A DNA stretch of 64,000 nucleotides, taken from contig NZ_BBJP01000023.1 of assembly GCF_000739595.1 (NCBI RefSeq), positions 62,001-126,000 on the forward strand, read 5' to 3'. Of this stretch, positions 8,561 to 37,015 are shown piece after piece. A program made the translations under genes and the position numbers. Under the pieces are notes generated by a model. That model searched no databases. It saw only the letters and a list, made by a program, of their open reading frames with translations, and was not told the DNA's origin. The first letter of the stretch is position 1. Each line of letters starts with the position of its first letter. The DNA comes from Halorubrum halophilum. GTDB lineage: Archaea; Halobacteriota; Halobacteria; Halobacteriales; Haloferacaceae.

Positions 8561-8568
8561 CTTATAAA
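8561..8568 (+). promoter_or_regulatory. TATA box of structured RNA copy 1
   Basis: CTTATAAA sits within GATCGCTTATAAACAAACGG, which is almost identical in copy 3 (16680-16698) and similar in copy 2 (13896-13912). A start about 25 bases downstream would fall at the first stem of the RNA. Confidence 0.55.
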
Positions 8569-8581
8569 CAAACGGTGTGCA

Positions 8582-8865
8582 GTGGCGCGCGCCTCCGAGC
8601 GGCCGCCCTCGGCGGCCGCGAAGGAGCGTCGCGCCAGGGAGTCAGTCGCCCGGAGCAACGCGGAGGGCGACTGACGAGGCTGGGGAGGCGTGAGGTGCGG
8701 TTGCAGTGCGGGGCGGGTGGGACTCAAAGGGGCAGCCGTGAGAACGGCGCAGGCGACGTAAGCACCGCAGGAACGAGCGAAGCGAGTGACGAGGAGCGCA
8801 ACGAGCGTGCGCCGTTCTCGCGGCTGGGGCTTTGGAGGAGTTCGCCGTCGATCCGGTGTCTCCTA
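8582..8865 (+). ncRNA. Structured RNA candidate, copy 1
   Basis: Three stems are separated by conserved single-stranded blocks. Stem 1 is GCGGCCGCC (8599-8607) with GGCGGCCGC (8611-8619), extended by outer pairs CTCC/GGAG and GGCGCG/CGCGCC. Stem 2 is GTCAGTCGCCC (8641-8651) with GGGCGACTGAC (8665-8675), followed by GAGGCTGGGGAGGCGTGAGG. Stem 3 pairs 8733-8751 with 8808-8826 over 19 bases with one G-U, and is preceded by GGGACTCAAAGGGGCAG and followed by CTGGGGCTTTGGAGG. Copies at 13921 and 16704 keep the blocks but change the stem sequences while preserving pairing. I do not recognise the family. It occupies the gap between the cyclodeaminase-family gene and ubaA. Confidence 0.65.
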
Positions 8866-8991
8866 CTTATAAGCGAGCGGCTGGGGCTTTGGAGGTATTC
8901 ACCGCCGATCCACGAACAGCCGCTTATAAGCGATCGACTGCGCCTTTGCAGGTGTTCGTCGCTGGATCGAGGTCAACCACTTATAAACGAC
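8821..8991 (+). repeat. Three tandem 57-bp modules, each ending in a TATA-like box
   Basis: Modules begin at 8821, 8878 and 8935, exactly 57 bases apart, and the first bases of a fourth start at 8992. Each reads roughly CGGCTGGGGCTTTGGAGG, then TTCACCGCCGATCC, a variable part and CTTATAA (8866, 8923, 8980). The first module overlaps the 3' end of RNA copy 1. Divergence rises from left to right, suggesting ageing duplications. The frame across the modules stays open only because 57 is a multiple of three; I do not regard it as coding. Confidence 0.7.
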
Positions 8992-13813: not shown

Positions 13814-13920
13814 GCTCTGTAGAACTCCGTCGCAGTTGAGACAGCGATCCCGGCGGCCACGCTACGATTATTTAAAAGCCCGTGAGCGACAGTGACGATC
13901 ACTTATAAAGAGCAATGCGG

Positions 13921-14100
13921 TGGCGCGTGCCGACGAGCGGCCATCGGCCGCGAAGTCGCACGCGCGAGGGACGCGGTGAGCGCTCGAAGAGCGCGAACCG
14001 CGAGGCTGGGGAGGCGTGAGGTGCGGTACGGTGCGGTTGTGGGTGGATGGGACTCAAAGGGGCAGCCGGCGAGGCGGCTGGGGCTTTGGCGGTGTTCACC
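13921..14100 (+). ncRNA. Structured RNA candidate, copy 2 (compact)
   Basis: It follows a TATA box, CTTATAAA (13902-13909). Stem 1 is GCGGCC (13937-13942) with GGCCGC (13946-13951), with outer pairs CGAC/GTCG and GCGCGTG/CACGCGC. Stem 2 pairs GCGGT...ACCGC and an inner GCGCTC/GAGCGC just before the invariant GAGGCTGGGGAGGCGTGAGG (14002-14021). GGGACTCAAAGGGGCAG (14049-14065) leads into a short stem 3, CAGCC/GGCTG, and then GGGGCTTTGG. Stem 3 is only about 18 bases long here, against 94 in copies 1 and 3, so the long loop arm is optional. Confidence 0.62.
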
Positions 14101-14122
14101 GCAGCACCATCGATCGCTCTCA

Positions 14123-15996: not shown

Positions 15997-16641
15997 ATGG
16001 ACCGCGAGCAGGCCGTCGCCCGGCTGGAGACCCTCGTCGACCGCGTCGAACGCGAGACCATGCCGGTCCCCGTCCGTGAGGTGTGGGCCTTCGGCGACGT
16101 GGCGCTCGGGCTCGACCCGGTCGAGCGGCTCGACGTCTACATCACCAAGGACGTGATCATGGGCGGCGACACCGAGGCGGCCGCCGACTTCGCGGCCGAG
16201 TACGGCGTCAAGGGCGTCGGCACCTCCGTGCGCGCCGAGTGGGCGGAGGCGCACCCCGACCGCGTGCGCGCGAGCGACAACGGGTACGCCGCGCCCGAGA
16301 AATGCCTCGCGGCCGAACTCGTCGCAGACGACGAGCCGATCCACCTCGAAGTGTGTAACGCGAGCTTCGAGGATAACGTGCGGCAGCGCCTGAAGGGCGC
16401 CCTCGCCCGCGACGCCTACGAGGAGGTGCTCGACCCGCGCGGCGTCTGCCTGTGGGTCGACGGCACCCGCGACGAGGAGGCGTTCGACCGGCTGCGCGAG
16501 GCCTCGCTCGCGATGCCGACGCTCCCGGCCGCGCTCGGTATGCTCGGCGCCGACGAGGACGTGGCCAACGAGGCCGCGGACGTGCTCAAGCGACAGCGGG
16601 CCGAGCAGGAGGGGGCGTCGGTGCGCGGCGATATGGTCTGA
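15997..16641 (+). CDS. Conserved haloarchaeal protein (nucleotidyltransferase-like setting), unknown function
   Basis: This 214-residue soluble protein starts MDREQAVARLETLVDRVERE. It includes REVWAFGDVALGLDPVERLDVYITKD, vaguely like a nucleotidyltransferase G-x-D-x-D strand, but no complete catalytic motif is visible. It is alpha/beta-like, acidic and without membrane segments. It follows polX by 83 bases in the same direction. I recognise it only as a conserved haloarchaeal type. RNA copy 3 begins shortly after its stop. Confidence 0.75.
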   Translation: MDREQAVARLETLVDRVERETMPVPVREVWAFGDVALGLDPVERLDVYITKDVIMGGDTEAAADFAAEYGVKGVGTSVRAEWAEAHPDRVRASDNGYAAPEKCLAAELVADDEPIHLEVCNASFEDNVRQRLKGALARDAYEEVLDPRGVCLWVDGTRDEEAFDRLREASLAMPTLPAALGMLGADEDVANEAADVLKRQRAEQEGASVRGDMV

Positions 16642-16683: not shown

Positions 16684-16691
16684 CTTATAAA
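16684..16691 (+). promoter_or_regulatory. TATA box of structured RNA copy 3
   Basis: CTTATAAA within ATCGCTTATAAACAAACGG matches the copy 1 promoter nearly base for base, and lies about 20 bases before the first stem. Confidence 0.55.
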
Positions 16692-16703
16692 CAAACGGTG
16701 CGG

Positions 16704-16980
16704 TGGCGTGCGCCTCCGAGCGGGCCATCGGCCCGCGAGGAGCACGCGCGAGGGAGTCGCTGGCGCCGGCGGCGCCAGCGACGAGGCTGGGGAGGCGTGA
16801 GGTGCGGTTGTAGGGCGGTTGCGGCTGGGACTCAAAGGGGCAGTCGCCGAGGGCGGCGGAGGCGACGTAAGCACTGCAGGGAGCGAGTGAAACGAGCGAC
16901 CGAAGCGCGCAGCGAGCGTGCGCCGCCCTCGGCGACTGGGGCTTTGGAGGTGTTCACCGTCGATCTGCCGTGAGCAACCA
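16704..16980 (+). ncRNA. Structured RNA candidate, copy 3
   Basis: Stem 1 is GCGGGCC (16720-16726) with GGCCCGC (16730-16736), with outer CTCC/GGAG and GCGTGC/GCACGC. Stem 2 is GTCGCTGGCGCC (16756-16767) with GGCGCCAGCGAC (16771-16782), a perfect 12-bp hairpin, followed by GAGGCTGGGGAGGCGTGAGG. Stem 3 pairs CAGTCGCCGAGGGCGGCG (16841-16858) with its exact complement at 16921-16938. Pairing is kept with different bases from copies 1 and 2, the hallmark of a selected RNA fold. A loop block, GGCGACGTAAGCACTGCAGG, is shared with copy 1. It lies between the gene at 15997 and a convergent methyltransferase gene. Confidence 0.66.
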
Positions 16981-17048
16981 CCTATAAGCAAGCGGCTGAG
17001 GATTTGGAGGTGTTCGTCGCCGATCCACAGTCACCGATCACGTATTAC
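16933..17048 (+). repeat. Two degenerate TATA-bearing tail modules
   Basis: Units beginning at 16933 (CGACTGGGGCTTTGGAGG) and 16993 (CGGCTGAGGATTTGGAGG) are 60 bases apart and carry CCTATAAG (16981) and CGTATTAC (17041) at the TATA position. A further CTTATAAA occurs at 17076. They match the 57-bp modules after copy 1 but are more decayed. Confidence 0.6.
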
Positions 17049-17123
17049 CGGCCAACAGCGACACCCCAACTCGACTTATAAACGACCACTCAGCCAACCC
17101 GATACAGGTACTCCCGCCACCGA

Positions 17124-17930
17124 TCACGCCATGCGTCCCACGGTCACGTCGAACGGGACGCGCTCGACGCGCTCGTACTCGCCCGCCTCGATCTCGCCGA
17201 CCACTTCCCGCCCCATTTCCCGCCAGCGCCGCCGCAGATCGTCGTACTCCCGCTCCGAGGTCGCCGCGATCAGCTCCTCGCGGTGATCGGCCAGCCCCGC
17301 GCCCGAGGCCTTCCGCGCCGCGGCGGTCAGCGCCGGCTCCGCGTACGGCGCCGCGATCCGCTTCTCGTGGACGTACCGCCGGGTCCGGACTTCCTCCAAT
17401 CCCGCCGCTGAGAACGCTTCCCGGACACGATCGCCGAGCGCCACGTCGGTGTCGACCCCCCGCAGGTACGCCTCCCGCGCCTCCCGCTCCAAGCGCTCCT
17501 CGCTCGCGACGCTCGACGAGACCGTCACGTCGGCGTTGTCGGGCTCGATCGCGGCCACCAACTCCGAGGAGACCCGTGCGAACTCCCGGACTGCGGCGGT
17601 CGGATCGGGGAGGTTGATGAGGAGCGCCTGACAGACTGCGAGGTCGACCGCGTCGTCCGGGAGGGGGAGCCGCGTCGCGTCGCCGGCGACGTACGGAAGG
17701 CCGGTCTCCTCGCGGGCGACGCGCAGGAGCTCCGGGTCGGCGTCGACGCCGATCACCGTCGCGTCGGGTGGCGTCTCCGCGTCGAGGACGCGAGTCAGCT
17801 CGCCGGTGCCGCAGCCGGCGTCGAGGACGCGGCGTCGACCCGGCAGATCGAGGTCCGCGAGGGCGTCCCGGCCGTCGGCCCACATCCCGCGGCGAGTGTG
17901 TTCGAGGTACTCTGCGGAGAAGCGTCGCAC
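17124..17930 (-). CDS. Class I SAM-dependent methyltransferase
   Basis: This 268-residue protein uses a GTG at 17930. Motif I is RRVLDAGCGTGELTRVLD near residue 35, motif II TVIGVDADPELLRVA, and the post-motif VDLAVCQALLINLPDP. The order is that of the Methyltransf_11/25 class, and the substrate cannot be inferred. The C-terminal 100 residues are charged and helical. The gene is convergent with the repeat region at 16642-17100. Confidence 0.8.
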   Translation of the reverse strand: MRRFSAEYLEHTRRGMWADGRDALADLDLPGRRRVLDAGCGTGELTRVLDAETPPDATVIGVDADPELLRVAREETGLPYVAGDATRLPLPDDAVDLAVCQALLINLPDPTAAVREFARVSSELVAAIEPDNADVTVSSSVASEERLEREAREAYLRGVDTDVALGDRVREAFSAAGLEEVRTRRYVHEKRIAAPYAEPALTAAARKASGAGLADHREELIAATSEREYDDLRRRWREMGREVVGEIEAGEYERVERVPFDVTVGRMA

Positions 17931-30066: not shown

Positions 30067-31305
30067 ATGGGAACGCACGCGAACCGAAATGCGTCGACGC
30101 GCCGTGATCTAATCAGGTACGGCGGCGCGGTTGCGGGGGCGGGACTGCTCGCGGGATGTCTCGGAGCCGGATCGGGCGATCCCGGCTCGGACGGCGGCTC
30201 CGACGACGAAGAGTCGGGTGGCGACGACGGACCTGCGGGCTCGTACTCCGTCGAGATGGCGCCGGTCGGCGAACTGACGCTCGATTCGGTTCCCGAGAGC
30301 GTCATGGTCTACAGCCTCCTGTACGCGGACATGGCGGTCGCGTTCGGCCACGGCGACGCGGTAAACTCGCTCGGCTTCGACGCGGACGCCGGCGGGAACA
30401 CGCTCGACGCCTACTACGCCGAGCTCGACGGCGTCGAGTTCGATCGGGAGGGGATCCGCCAGCTCAACTCGGGCTCCGGCGACGGGATCACTGTCGACCG
30501 GGAGCTGCTCTACGAGCTTGACGCCGACCTCCACCTGGCGGACCCCTGCCTGTTCGCCTCTTTCGAGGGATGGGACGAGGACGACGTGGCGGAGATCCGC
30601 GACAACGTCGGACCGTGGTTCGGCAACGTGTACAGCCGCCGGAACTCCGAGCCGCCGGAGTCGTGCCGCGACGACTACGAGTACTACGGACTCTGGGAGA
30701 TCGCCGAGCGCGTCGCCGGCGCGTTTCGGGAGCCGGAGCGCTACGAGGCGCTCTCGGCGGTCCGCGACGACCTGATCGAGACGGTGCAGGCGGACCTCCC
30801 GCCGGAGGAGGAGCGCCCGACGGTCGGGACCCTCCTCTACATGGACGGAACCTACTACCCCTCGCGGCTCGACGAGCCCGGATTCGCCAACGCCCACGTG
30901 CGCCCCTTCGGCGTGCCCGACGCGTTCGGCGCCGACGACGTGACCTACGAGACCGCCTACGACCATGAGCAGCTGTTGGAGGTCGACCCCGACGTCATCC
31001 TCCACCAGTACGGGATGGAGTCCTACTACGACGTGGCGGGAACCCGCGAGGAGCTCGCCGACCACCCCGTCGCTGGCGAGCTCTCCGCGATCGAGAACGA
31101 CCGGTTCTACCCCTCGGGCGACCCGGTTCAGGGGCCGATCATGAACCTCTTCCAGATCGAGATGACCGCAAAACAGCTATTCCCCGAGCGGTTCGGCGAG
31201 TGGCCGGCCTACGAGCTCGGCGACGGCTACCCGGAGATTCCCGAGTCCGAGCGGCTCTTCGATCGCGACCGGGTCGCGGCGATCGTCGCGGGTGATGCAG
31301 AATGA
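30067..31305 (+). CDS. Siderophore ABC transporter substrate-binding lipoprotein (paralogue 1)
   Basis: This 412-residue protein has a Tat signal with twin Arg (STRRDLIRYGG) and lipobox LLAGC near residue 32, so it should be a lipid-anchored extracellular protein. A Gly/Ser/Asp/Glu-rich tether (35-60) precedes a two-lobed FepB/FhuD-like domain with SVPESVMVYSLLYADMAVAF and EQLLEVDPDVILHQYGME. It is the first gene of an operon with flavoprotein, permease and ATPase genes, overlapping the next ATG as ATGA-type coupling. Two paralogues follow at 34503 and 35738. Confidence 0.85.
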   Translation: MGTHANRNASTRRDLIRYGGAVAGAGLLAGCLGAGSGDPGSDGGSDDEESGGDDGPAGSYSVEMAPVGELTLDSVPESVMVYSLLYADMAVAFGHGDAVNSLGFDADAGGNTLDAYYAELDGVEFDREGIRQLNSGSGDGITVDRELLYELDADLHLADPCLFASFEGWDEDDVAEIRDNVGPWFGNVYSRRNSEPPESCRDDYEYYGLWEIAERVAGAFREPERYEALSAVRDDLIETVQADLPPEEERPTVGTLLYMDGTYYPSRLDEPGFANAHVRPFGVPDAFGADDVTYETAYDHEQLLEVDPDVILHQYGMESYYDVAGTREELADHPVAGELSAIENDRFYPSGDPVQGPIMNLFQIEMTAKQLFPERFGEWPAYELGDGYPEIPESERLFDRDRVAAIVAGDAE

Positions 31306-34502: not shown

Positions 34503-35735
34503 ATGCGTGGAGATGACGCGACACGCGGCGACCCGACCCGCAGAGCCTTCGCAAAGTACGGCGGCGCCGTCGCCCTCGGCGGTCTCCTCGCCGGCTGCAC
34601 CGAGGGAAGCGCCGACGGTAACAGCGGTGACGGTACCGAGATCGGTGAGAGCGGCAACGACACGGACACCGCCTCGACGACCTCAACTGAACCGGACACC
34701 GAGGGCGAAGAGTCGGGCGGGGTCTCGTACACCGCCGCCATGGAGCCGGTTGGCGAGGTGACTTTCGAAGCGGTCCCGGAGCGGTGGGTCGCGTACGACG
34801 GCGGCTTCGCGGACATGGCCGTCGCACTGGGGAGAGGCGACGGGCTGGCCGGCGTCGGCAACGCCGACCGGTACTACACGTACGTCTACGACGAGCTCCC
34901 CGGAGTCGACGTCGATCGGAGCCCGATCGAGGCGCACCCGCAGGTCAGGACGAAAGAGGAGTTCTACGAGCTCGACGCCGACATCCACCTGTACGACCCC
35001 CAGATGCTCGTCAACTGGTTCGACTGGGGGGAAGACGATGTCGCGGAGATCCGCGACAACGTCGCCCCGTTCTTCGGAAATCTGATCTTCCGGCGATCCG
35101 ACGGCTGGCACGACTACCGGTACTACACGCTGTACGAGGCGTTCGAGCGGGTGGCGACGGCGTTCGACGAGCGCGAGCGCTACGAGGCGTTCGCCGAGTT
35201 CCACGAGTCGTTCATCGCGGACGCACAAGCGCGTCTTCCGCCGACAGACGACCGACCGAGCGTGTTCCTGACGTTCGAGGGAACCGACGAGCCCGAGACC
35301 TTCTCGCCGTACCGACTGGTCGACAAGGGGACGAGCAAGAAGCAGTGGCTCGATCTGGGCGTGACCGACGCGCTCGCGGGAACGGACGTCGAAAACCTCA
35401 GCACCACTAACCGCGGCGAACTCGACTACGAGAACCTGCTTGAACTGGACCCGGACGTGATTCTCGTCCGCGGACACGAGCGCAAATCGCCGACGGAGTT
35501 CCGTGACACCGTCCTCGCGTACATGGAGGATCACCCCGTCGGGAGCGAACTCACGGCGGTCCAGAACGGCCGCGTGTACCGCGGTGGCTACCTCAATCAG
35601 GGGCCGATTCACAACCTGTTCTTGACCGAACGAGCCGCGAAGCAGCTCTACCCGGAAGAGTTCGGTCCTGTCACCGGCGACGCGGAGCTGTTTGACCGCC
35701 AGCGCGTTGCGGACATCATCAACGGAGCGTTCTGA
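34503..35735 (+). CDS. Siderophore-binding Tat lipoprotein (paralogue 2)
   Basis: The 410-residue protein has twin Arg in DPTRRAFAKYGG and the lipobox LLAGC near residue 35. The acidic linker is rich in Thr/Ser/Glu. The binding domain shares EPVGEVTFEAVPERWVAYDG and NLLELDPDVILVRGHER with the first paralogue and ends LFDRQRVADIINGAF. It has its own doubled iron box but no adjacent permease gene, so it probably uses the permease at 32300. The next paralogue starts two bases after its stop. Confidence 0.84.
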   Translation: MRGDDATRGDPTRRAFAKYGGAVALGGLLAGCTEGSADGNSGDGTEIGESGNDTDTASTTSTEPDTEGEESGGVSYTAAMEPVGEVTFEAVPERWVAYDGGFADMAVALGRGDGLAGVGNADRYYTYVYDELPGVDVDRSPIEAHPQVRTKEEFYELDADIHLYDPQMLVNWFDWGEDDVAEIRDNVAPFFGNLIFRRSDGWHDYRYYTLYEAFERVATAFDERERYEAFAEFHESFIADAQARLPPTDDRPSVFLTFEGTDEPETFSPYRLVDKGTSKKQWLDLGVTDALAGTDVENLSTTNRGELDYENLLELDPDVILVRGHERKSPTEFRDTVLAYMEDHPVGSELTAVQNGRVYRGGYLNQGPIHNLFLTERAAKQLYPEEFGPVTGDAELFDRQRVADIINGAF

Positions 35736-35737
35736 CG

Positions 35738-37015
35738 ATGGATTCAAACGAGACAACCGATACTACCGGGACGATCGAACGCGAGACGCCGACGCGGAGG
35801 GAGACGATCACGTACGGCGGCGCCGTCGCCCTCGGCGGCCTCCTCGCCGGTTGCATCGGCGGCGGCGACGGCGACGAGGGCGATTCGTCCGCCGACGGCG
35901 CGACCGAGAACGGCTCGACCGACGACAGCTCGACCGACGACGACTCGGAGGAGTCACAGACCGAGGACGACGCCGAGGAGAGCTACACGGCGTCGATCTC
36001 GCCGACGGGAGCGGTCACCTTCGAGTCGCCGCCGGAGACGGTGTTCACGCGGCTCACCCACCACGCGGACATGGCGTTCGCGCTCGGTCGGGGAGACGAT
36101 GTCACCGCGCTGCATGCGCCCGACTACTACGACGGGCTCTGGAACCAGTACGTCGAGCGCCTGCCGGGCGTCTCGCTCGACTGGTCCGGACTCTACTCCT
36201 CGTGGGAGCCGGACAAGGAGAAGCTGTACGACCTCGACAGCGACATTCACCTCGCGGACCCCGCGTGGGTGACGCAACTGGAGGGGTGGGGGCGCGAGGA
36301 TATCGACGAGATCGCCGAGAACGTCTCGCCGTGGTTCGGCAACTCCCTCAGCGACCGCCACCAGGAGCCGACACCCGAGTGGGCCGACGGCTACGAGTAC
36401 TACGGGCTCTGGGAGCAGTTCGAGATCGTCGCCCGGGCGTTCGACGAGAACGAGCGCTACGAGGCGCTCGCGGAGGTCCGCGAGGGCCTCCTGTCGACGA
36501 TCGACGAGCGGCTCCCGCCGGAGGAGGAGCGTCCGACCGCGGTCATGATCGCCGCCGCCGACATCGAACAGATCTACGCGTACACCCTGAGCAACCCCGG
36601 CTTCCTCACGTCGCACACGCGCCCGCTCGGGCCGCGCGACGCGTTCGAGGGGAGCGTCGAGTCCGGGACCGTCGTCGACTTCGAGACGATCCTCGAGGCG
36701 GACCCCGACGTCATCCTCTACCTCGGCGGCATGGAGCCGGGAACGGACATGGCCGGGCGCCGGACCGCCTTCGAGGAGGACCCCGTCGGCTCGGAGGTCA
36801 CGGCGGTTCGGAACGACCGCATCCACCCGCAGGGCGCCCGGTATCAGGGACCGATCCTGAATCTCTTCCAGATCGAGATGACGGCGAAACAGCTCTACCC
36901 CGACGAGTTCGGCGCGTGGCCGCGGTACGAGTCGGGACCGTACCCGGAGATTCCCGAGGGCGAACGGCTGTTCGACCGCCAGCGCGTCGCGGACGCCATC
37001 AACGGGGACCTGTAG
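35738..37015 (+). CDS. Siderophore-binding Tat lipoprotein (paralogue 3)
   Basis: The 425-residue product has the Tat motif PTRRETITYGG, lipobox LLAGC and a long Asp/Ser/Glu linker of about 50 residues. The binding domain runs from TASISPTGAVTFESPPETVF to the end LFDRQRVADAINGDL, which matches paralogue 2. It is co-transcribed from the iron boxes at 34447-34500. The divergence of the three binding domains suggests different ferric ligands. Confidence 0.84.
   Translation: MDSNETTDTTGTIERETPTRRETITYGGAVALGGLLAGCIGGGDGDEGDSSADGATENGSTDDSSTDDDSEESQTEDDAEESYTASISPTGAVTFESPPETVFTRLTHHADMAFALGRGDDVTALHAPDYYDGLWNQYVERLPGVSLDWSGLYSSWEPDKEKLYDLDSDIHLADPAWVTQLEGWGREDIDEIAENVSPWFGNSLSDRHQEPTPEWADGYEYYGLWEQFEIVARAFDENERYEALAEVREGLLSTIDERLPPEEERPTAVMIAAADIEQIYAYTLSNPGFLTSHTRPLGPRDAFEGSVESGTVVDFETILEADPDVILYLGGMEPGTDMAGRRTAFEEDPVGSEVTAVRNDRIHPQGARYQGPILNLFQIEMTAKQLYPDEFGAWPRYESGPYPEIPEGERLFDRQRVADAINGDL

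Follow-up and report, generated by a model that had tools for sequence, protein, structure and literature searches.

A high-copy repeat with a covarying RNA-like fold in Halorubrum genomes

Three copies of a folded repeat in one Halorubrum window

The window analysed here, a 64,000-nt stretch of the Halorubrum halophilum genome, holds three copies of a repeated element of ~260-270 nt, whose parts in copy 3 are listed in Table 1. Copy 3 follows a gene on its own strand (15997-16641) and precedes a gene on the minus strand (17124-17930), which is thus convergent, as the earlier note had described it. Elsewhere in the window lie three clustered paralogous genes with lipobox-like starts (YGGAVA...LLAGC) at 30117-31215, 34556-35665 and 35812-36931; these are 61-85% alike in DNA (families D5, D6, D10, D11 and D15) and look like substrate-binding lipoproteins.

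Direct reading of the sequence bears out the earlier claim that stem 2 of copy 3 is perfect, with 12 of 12 pairs in GTCGCTGGCGCC-GGC-GGCGCCAGCGAC (16756-16782), and the same is true of stem 3, in which CAGTCGCCGAGGGCGGCG (16841-16858) pairs with CGCCGCCCTCGGCGACTG (16921-16938) at 18 of 18 positions. The loop block said to be shared with copy 1 is indeed nearly identical, GGCGACGTAAGCACTGCAGG in copy 3 (16861-16880) differing once from GGCGACGTAAGCACCGCAGG in copy 1. The P3 hairpin of copy 2 is reduced and is without the long hairpin of copy 3. Folding energies compared with those of shuffled sequences give z-scores of -5.4, -5.7 and -3.3 for the three window copies, and copy 3 scores 98.7 bits against the family covariance model, copy 3 being one of the 39 sequences on which that model was trained; together with very strong covariation across the alignment, these values show that the window repeats did not arise by chance. 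A search for a T-run terminator at the element found none. All three window copies point the same way, as had been noted, but this does not extend to the genome, where both strands are occupied, and the shared direction in the window is therefore a local coincidence.

Table 1. Features of copy 3 and of related elements in the window
Feature	Coordinates	Strand	Description or basis
Copy 1	8562..8850	+	TTATAA 8562-8567; core ~8575-8850; covariance model 73.7 bits
Two tandem 3'-end repeat units after copy 1	8865..8970	+	Repeat family D9
Copy 2	13869..14108	+	TATTTAAA 13869, TTATAA 13903, core ~13917-14102; 75.1 bits
TTATAA box, copy 3	16685..16690	+	15 nt before GCGGTGGCG; either a promoter-like TATA box or a boundary of the element
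Structured RNA core, copy 3	16700..16960	+	Folding, RNAalifold, covariance model, covariation
Closing stem, 5' strand GGTGG	16702..16706	+	Pairs with TTCACC 16953-16958; helix 1, 96% of cells paired
P1, outer stem and hairpin GAGCGGGCC/GGCCCGCGAG	16708..16754	+	Helices 2-3, 98-99% paired
P2, perfect 12-bp hairpin (stem 2)	16756..16782	+	Family covariation, helices 4-5
Conserved junction CGAGGCTGGGGAGGCGTGAGG	16782..16802	+	Near-invariant across genera
Conserved block TGGGACTCAAAGGGGCAG, 5' strand of P3 base	16826..16843	+	Helices 6-7
P3, including the perfect 18-bp stem (stem 3)	16841..16938	+	Helices 7-12
Conserved CTGGGGCTTTGGAGGTGTTCACCG, 3' strand of P3 base and of closing stem	16936..16959	+	
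Partial repeat unit, degenerate TTATAA box and RNA 3'-end copy	16980..17028	+	Repeat family D9
Class I 3' arm remnant, inverted-repeat end ...GTACTCCCGCCACCGATCA	17050..17126	+	Comparison with class I arms

Covariation and the folded strand

Besides a closing stem, the fold has two hairpins (P1 and P2), a G-rich junction that is nearly invariant, and a long third hairpin, P3, the base of which contains a GGG/GGG internal loop and the distal part of which alternates 2-bp Watson-Crick pairs with GA/GA mismatches. RNAalifold applied to 38 full copies returns 66 pairs, 36 of them with two-sided changes, and P1 (helices 2-3) shows such changes at 10 pairs. When 62 pairs are counted over the 38 copies, 97.1% of stem cells are paired vs 86.3% in shuffles, and two-sided changes occupy 223 cells vs 63, a value reached in none of 500 shuffles; sliding the pairing partners lowers pairing to 31-46%. 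Covariation beyond both shuffled and slid controls is what is generally expected of a structured noncoding RNA. The 5' domain of low-copy Halorubrum, Halorussus and Halobaculum-like copies is 94.3% paired vs 72.7%, in an alignment fitted to the model. The fold is clearly maintained by evolution, and the earlier description of the repeats as a structured, strand-specific, RNA-like element is well supported.

Among cells that depart from the majority pair, G.U outnumbers A.C by 70 to 18, and by 75 to 13 in a second set, indicating that the plus strand is the one that folds; the GA/GA alternation of distal P3 favours the same strand. An RNA from the antisense strand, considered for the downstream TTATAA units, is rejected on both counts. 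Copy lengths modulo 3 show no excess of any residue, so the element is not protein-coding. Four tracts of at least three G each are found in 34 of the 38 copies. In copies L025, L326 and L336, several P1 and P2 hairpin tips are perfect palindromes centred on TTATAA or TTTTAA (e.g., GGCGCTTATAAGCGCC), a hexamer of the same kind as that marking the element flanks.

Distribution, boundaries and known families

In this genome, covariance model R1, built for the 5' domain from 39 copies (105 positions), gives at least 137 matches with E ≤ 1e-3 among 150 candidates scored, and BLAST finds at least 40 places at 77-100% identity. All 34 same-genus genomes searched are positive, from at least 150 copies in Halorubrum sp. 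CSM-61 (G014) and 141 in H. xinjiangense (G028) down to 13 (G019) and 7 (G034). Named matches cover ~20 Halorubrum species, Haloparvum sedimenti and two Halorussus species. An order-wide draw matched 49 of 293 genomes, strongly only in Halorubrum, the counts outside this genus being lower bounds since few candidates per genome were scored. Two Halorussus-group genomes, H. salinisoli among them, carry 26 and 19 diverged copies, and a Halobaculum-like genus carries 3-5; Haloparvum has a full-length relative. The 3' domain (AAAGGGGC.../...GGGGCTTT) is retained in the Haloparvum copy and in some Halorussus copies, the remaining Halorussus copies carrying a different 3' end with TAGCTAGCTTC. In Halorussus litoreus (L262), the 5' domain is followed by an inverted TAGCTAGCTTC and an inverted junction block, which suggests head-to-head elements. 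Phage and viral collections gave no match, and plasmids gave partial matches only.

A TTATAA box precedes GCGGTGGCG by 12-25 nt, at near-fixed spacing, in 37 of 42 copies (chance rate ~0.1% per 22 nt), and another lies within 60 nt past GGTGTTC in 37 of 42, mostly at 20-26 nt. These boxes may act as promoters, going by motif and position. The haloarchaeal TATA box usually lies ~27 nt from the start, however, a spacing that would begin the RNA inside the conserved 5' strand, so TTATAA may mark element ends instead. A class I subset carries longer inverted arms on both sides, beginning TGATCGATAGCGGGAGTGGGTAT; terminal inverted repeats of the kind that define MITEs are thus present in a subset of copies. 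Core-less arm pairs also occur and could result from deletion between the direct TTATAA repeats. One such remnant outside the window (L142, G000:C81:208971-209101) consists of two class I arms alone and sits exactly at a synteny breakpoint, both partners of which carry a full copy in Halorubrum sp. CSM-61. Copies 1 and 3 are followed by 57-60-bp units, each a TTATAA-like box with a copy of the RNA 3' end (family D9), the unit after copy 3 being 86% identical to that after copy 1. Arrays of similar 3'-end units follow copies in G019, and copy L332 of G034 is followed by TTATAA repeats with a ~28-nt period.

Searches of Rfam 15 at gathering and permissive scores returned no family, the window tRNA being the sole match and nothing else coming near the gathering score, and we found no description of the family in open-licence literature. 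The large structured noncoding RNAs HEARO, GOLLD and OLE share with the element a large covarying noncoding RNA and conserved junctions, but the element matches no Rfam 15 model and has a far higher copy number. Eukaryotic SINEs are high-copy repeats of a structured RNA unit, old and diverged, and the Halorubrum element resembles them in each of these respects; unlike SINEs, it shows no poly-A and no variable target duplications, and its hosts show no reverse transcriptase in five genomes. A SINE-like retroelement served by a resident reverse transcriptase is rejected on this search (PF00078, 0 of 5 genomes; controls positive).

We then consider whether the selected fold is that of single-stranded DNA, a Y1 (HUH) transposase mobilising the element as a DNA hairpin in the manner of IS200/IS605-derived PATEs or REP/RAYT. 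A folded single strand with strand asymmetry would suit this reading, as would the GA/GA tandem mismatches, which are stable in DNA too, and Y1 transposase genes are present, though few. PATEs are moreover abundant in the related Haloquadratum (PMC3119063). The IS605-type right ends in these genomes are nevertheless unrelated to the element, copies do not lie at TnpB or Y1 genes save for one chance-like neighbour, and the high-copy G014 has a single Y1 gene, so that we regard movement by Y1 as very improbable. Several specific candidates of this type were rejected. An omega-RNA of TnpB or another IS605-linked RNA fails on adjacency, C87 being the sole neighbour when 32 TnpB matches are set beside 137 element matches. 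REP/BIME with RAYT is set aside because the element is 260 nt long and the Y1 genes of this genome adjoin tnpB, no solitary Y1 or RAYT being seen in it; a PATE is set aside because similarity to IS605-type ends does not go beyond short chance matches and class I copies have inverted arms. We saw no clear target-site duplication, and no transposase between class I-type arms in ~860 kb inspected.

The nearest described kind is nonetheless the PATEs, MITEs and SMRs of Haloquadratum walsbyi, which are likewise short, high-copy intergenic repeats of mosaic build that encode no transposase and show deletions of the core between direct repeats (PMC3119063). PATE ends match IS605-type ends and those of the Halorubrum element do not; the latter has a covarying 260-nt fold, with arms on a subset of copies, whereas the available text of that description reports no conserved RNA structure for PATEs (PMC3119063).

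Sites, recombination and interpretation

Gene orientations, taken from simple codon-model gene calls, were classifiable around 50 copies. Convergent intergenic regions hold 23 of the 50 vs 21% of intergenic regions expected (p = 7e-5); tandem regions hold 10 sense and 11 antisense copies, and divergent regions 6. With no strand preference relative to neighbouring genes, the element is neither a leader nor an obligate trailer; a cis leader or trailer is ruled out, and the earlier assertion that the RNA is not a cis leader holds across these copies. An element that acts in cis at the 3' ends of genes, as DNA or RNA (a bidirectional terminator, insulator or mRNA stabiliser comparable to REP/BIME), would account for the convergent excess and for TTATAA boxes symmetric on both sides. 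That excess could be mere promoter avoidance, sense and antisense copies beside tandem neighbours are equal in number, the strand asymmetry is clear, and a 260-nt fold with invariant loops and a long P3 goes far beyond the needs of a terminator; we think such a role distinctly improbable. REPs are ~20-40 nt, tied to RAYT and located at gene 3' ends, and ERIC is a 127-bp near-palindrome. The element shares with REP/BIME and ERIC/IRU more than 100 dispersed intergenic copies and conserved foldback potential, and differs from REP and ERIC in its 260-nt length, three domains, invariant junctions and cross-genus covariation.

Comparison of one 300-kb contig with Halorubrum sp. CSM-61 reveals a copy at the orthologous site for ~10 of 12 testable copies. 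At the copy 3 site, an element in the same orientation is present in G014, G011, G061, G028, G026 and G030, two further genomes have truncated remnants, and G009 and G022 have no element between genes that are still adjacent. A copy matches its positional ortholog best in just 1 of 10 cases, and no statistical linkage joins the types of hairpin found at P1, P2 and P3. A copy occupies four of the eight tight synteny breakpoints vs 8% expected (p = 0.002), and at three of these four, copies are found at both target ends. Conserved sites with poor ortholog matches, unlinked hairpins and the coincidence with breakpoints together point to ectopic recombination between copies. Some copies carry hairpin cassettes inserted at fixed places. 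One of ~90 nt (GGAGCACGGAAGTCGCAGCCCGCGC...GACCGTCTTCCGG, with variants) lies between the junction and TGGGACTC, at the same place in copies of different species (L088, L091, L333, and G000:C81 at 157.6k and 163.7k). Truncated copies occur, and recent duplicates are nearly absent, with one pair at 95% and the next best at 86% among 61 copies compared, for which boundaries are approximate. With a single recent-looking pair and ~10 of 12 testable sites common to another species, present-day mobility is not seen.

The main rival to an interspersed element is a multicopy host noncoding RNA gene family, in which every copy would be transcribed and the RNA would act in trans with a protein, dosage explaining the copy number. 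Strong covariation, near-invariant single-stranded blocks, conservation that spans every Halorubrum genome searched and extends to other genera, sites conserved between species, and the near-fixed upstream TTATAA of 37 of 42 copies are what such a family would be expected to show. The variation from 7 to at least 150 copies within one genus and the many truncated copies are not, nor is the absence or great sparseness of the family in most haloarchaeal genera of the order-wide draw, and the TATA spacing would place the RNA start within the 5' strand. The earlier note had looked to a protein gene present in every genome rich in copies; no such partner emerged, TnpB, Y1 transposase and reverse transcriptase failing to fit, and this too counts against a host RNA, which we judge rather unlikely.

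We also entertain, as an improbable composite, a new class of large functional RNA that would combine a fixed core (P1-P2, the G-rich junction and the GGG/GGG P3 base) with exchangeable hairpin cassettes, would have colonised haloarchaeal genomes without reverse transcriptase and been kept current by gene conversion, and whose four near-invariant G-tracts may fold into a G-quadruplex core in a haloarchaeal cytoplasm with molar potassium, and bind a dedicated protein or be catalytic.

The explanation we favour, to which we give an even chance on comparative sequence grounds, is that of an old interspersed element of the non-autonomous kind. Its conserved unit would be a folded RNA, and it would have been amplified within Halorubrum, with ectopic recombination homogenising the copies. 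These would have multiplied with the aid of a protein acting in trans through recognition of the folded RNA (or of single-stranded DNA), the fold being retained owing to that recognition, and ectopic gene conversion between copies would now do most of the spreading and homogenising. High copy number, presence in every Halorubrum genome searched with large differences in number, covariation, unlinked hairpins, copies at breakpoints, arms and remnants, convergent enrichment and truncated copies all support an interspersed element. Against it stand the single recent-looking pair, the few Y1 transposases, and searches that returned no clear target-site duplication, autonomous partner or reverse transcriptase; near-invariant single-stranded blocks would be unexpected in a purely selfish element unless it is still spreading or converting.

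The covarying RNA family described here has no Rfam entry, and several genomes of an intensively studied genus carry over 100 copies each; few known structured RNA elements of archaea would match it in abundance. The family offers a natural experiment on concerted evolution, in which sites persist and hairpins are swapped as modules, and it supplies a tangible reason why haloarchaeal chromosomes are rearranged. If expressed, the RNA would form a single pool drawn from over 100 loci.
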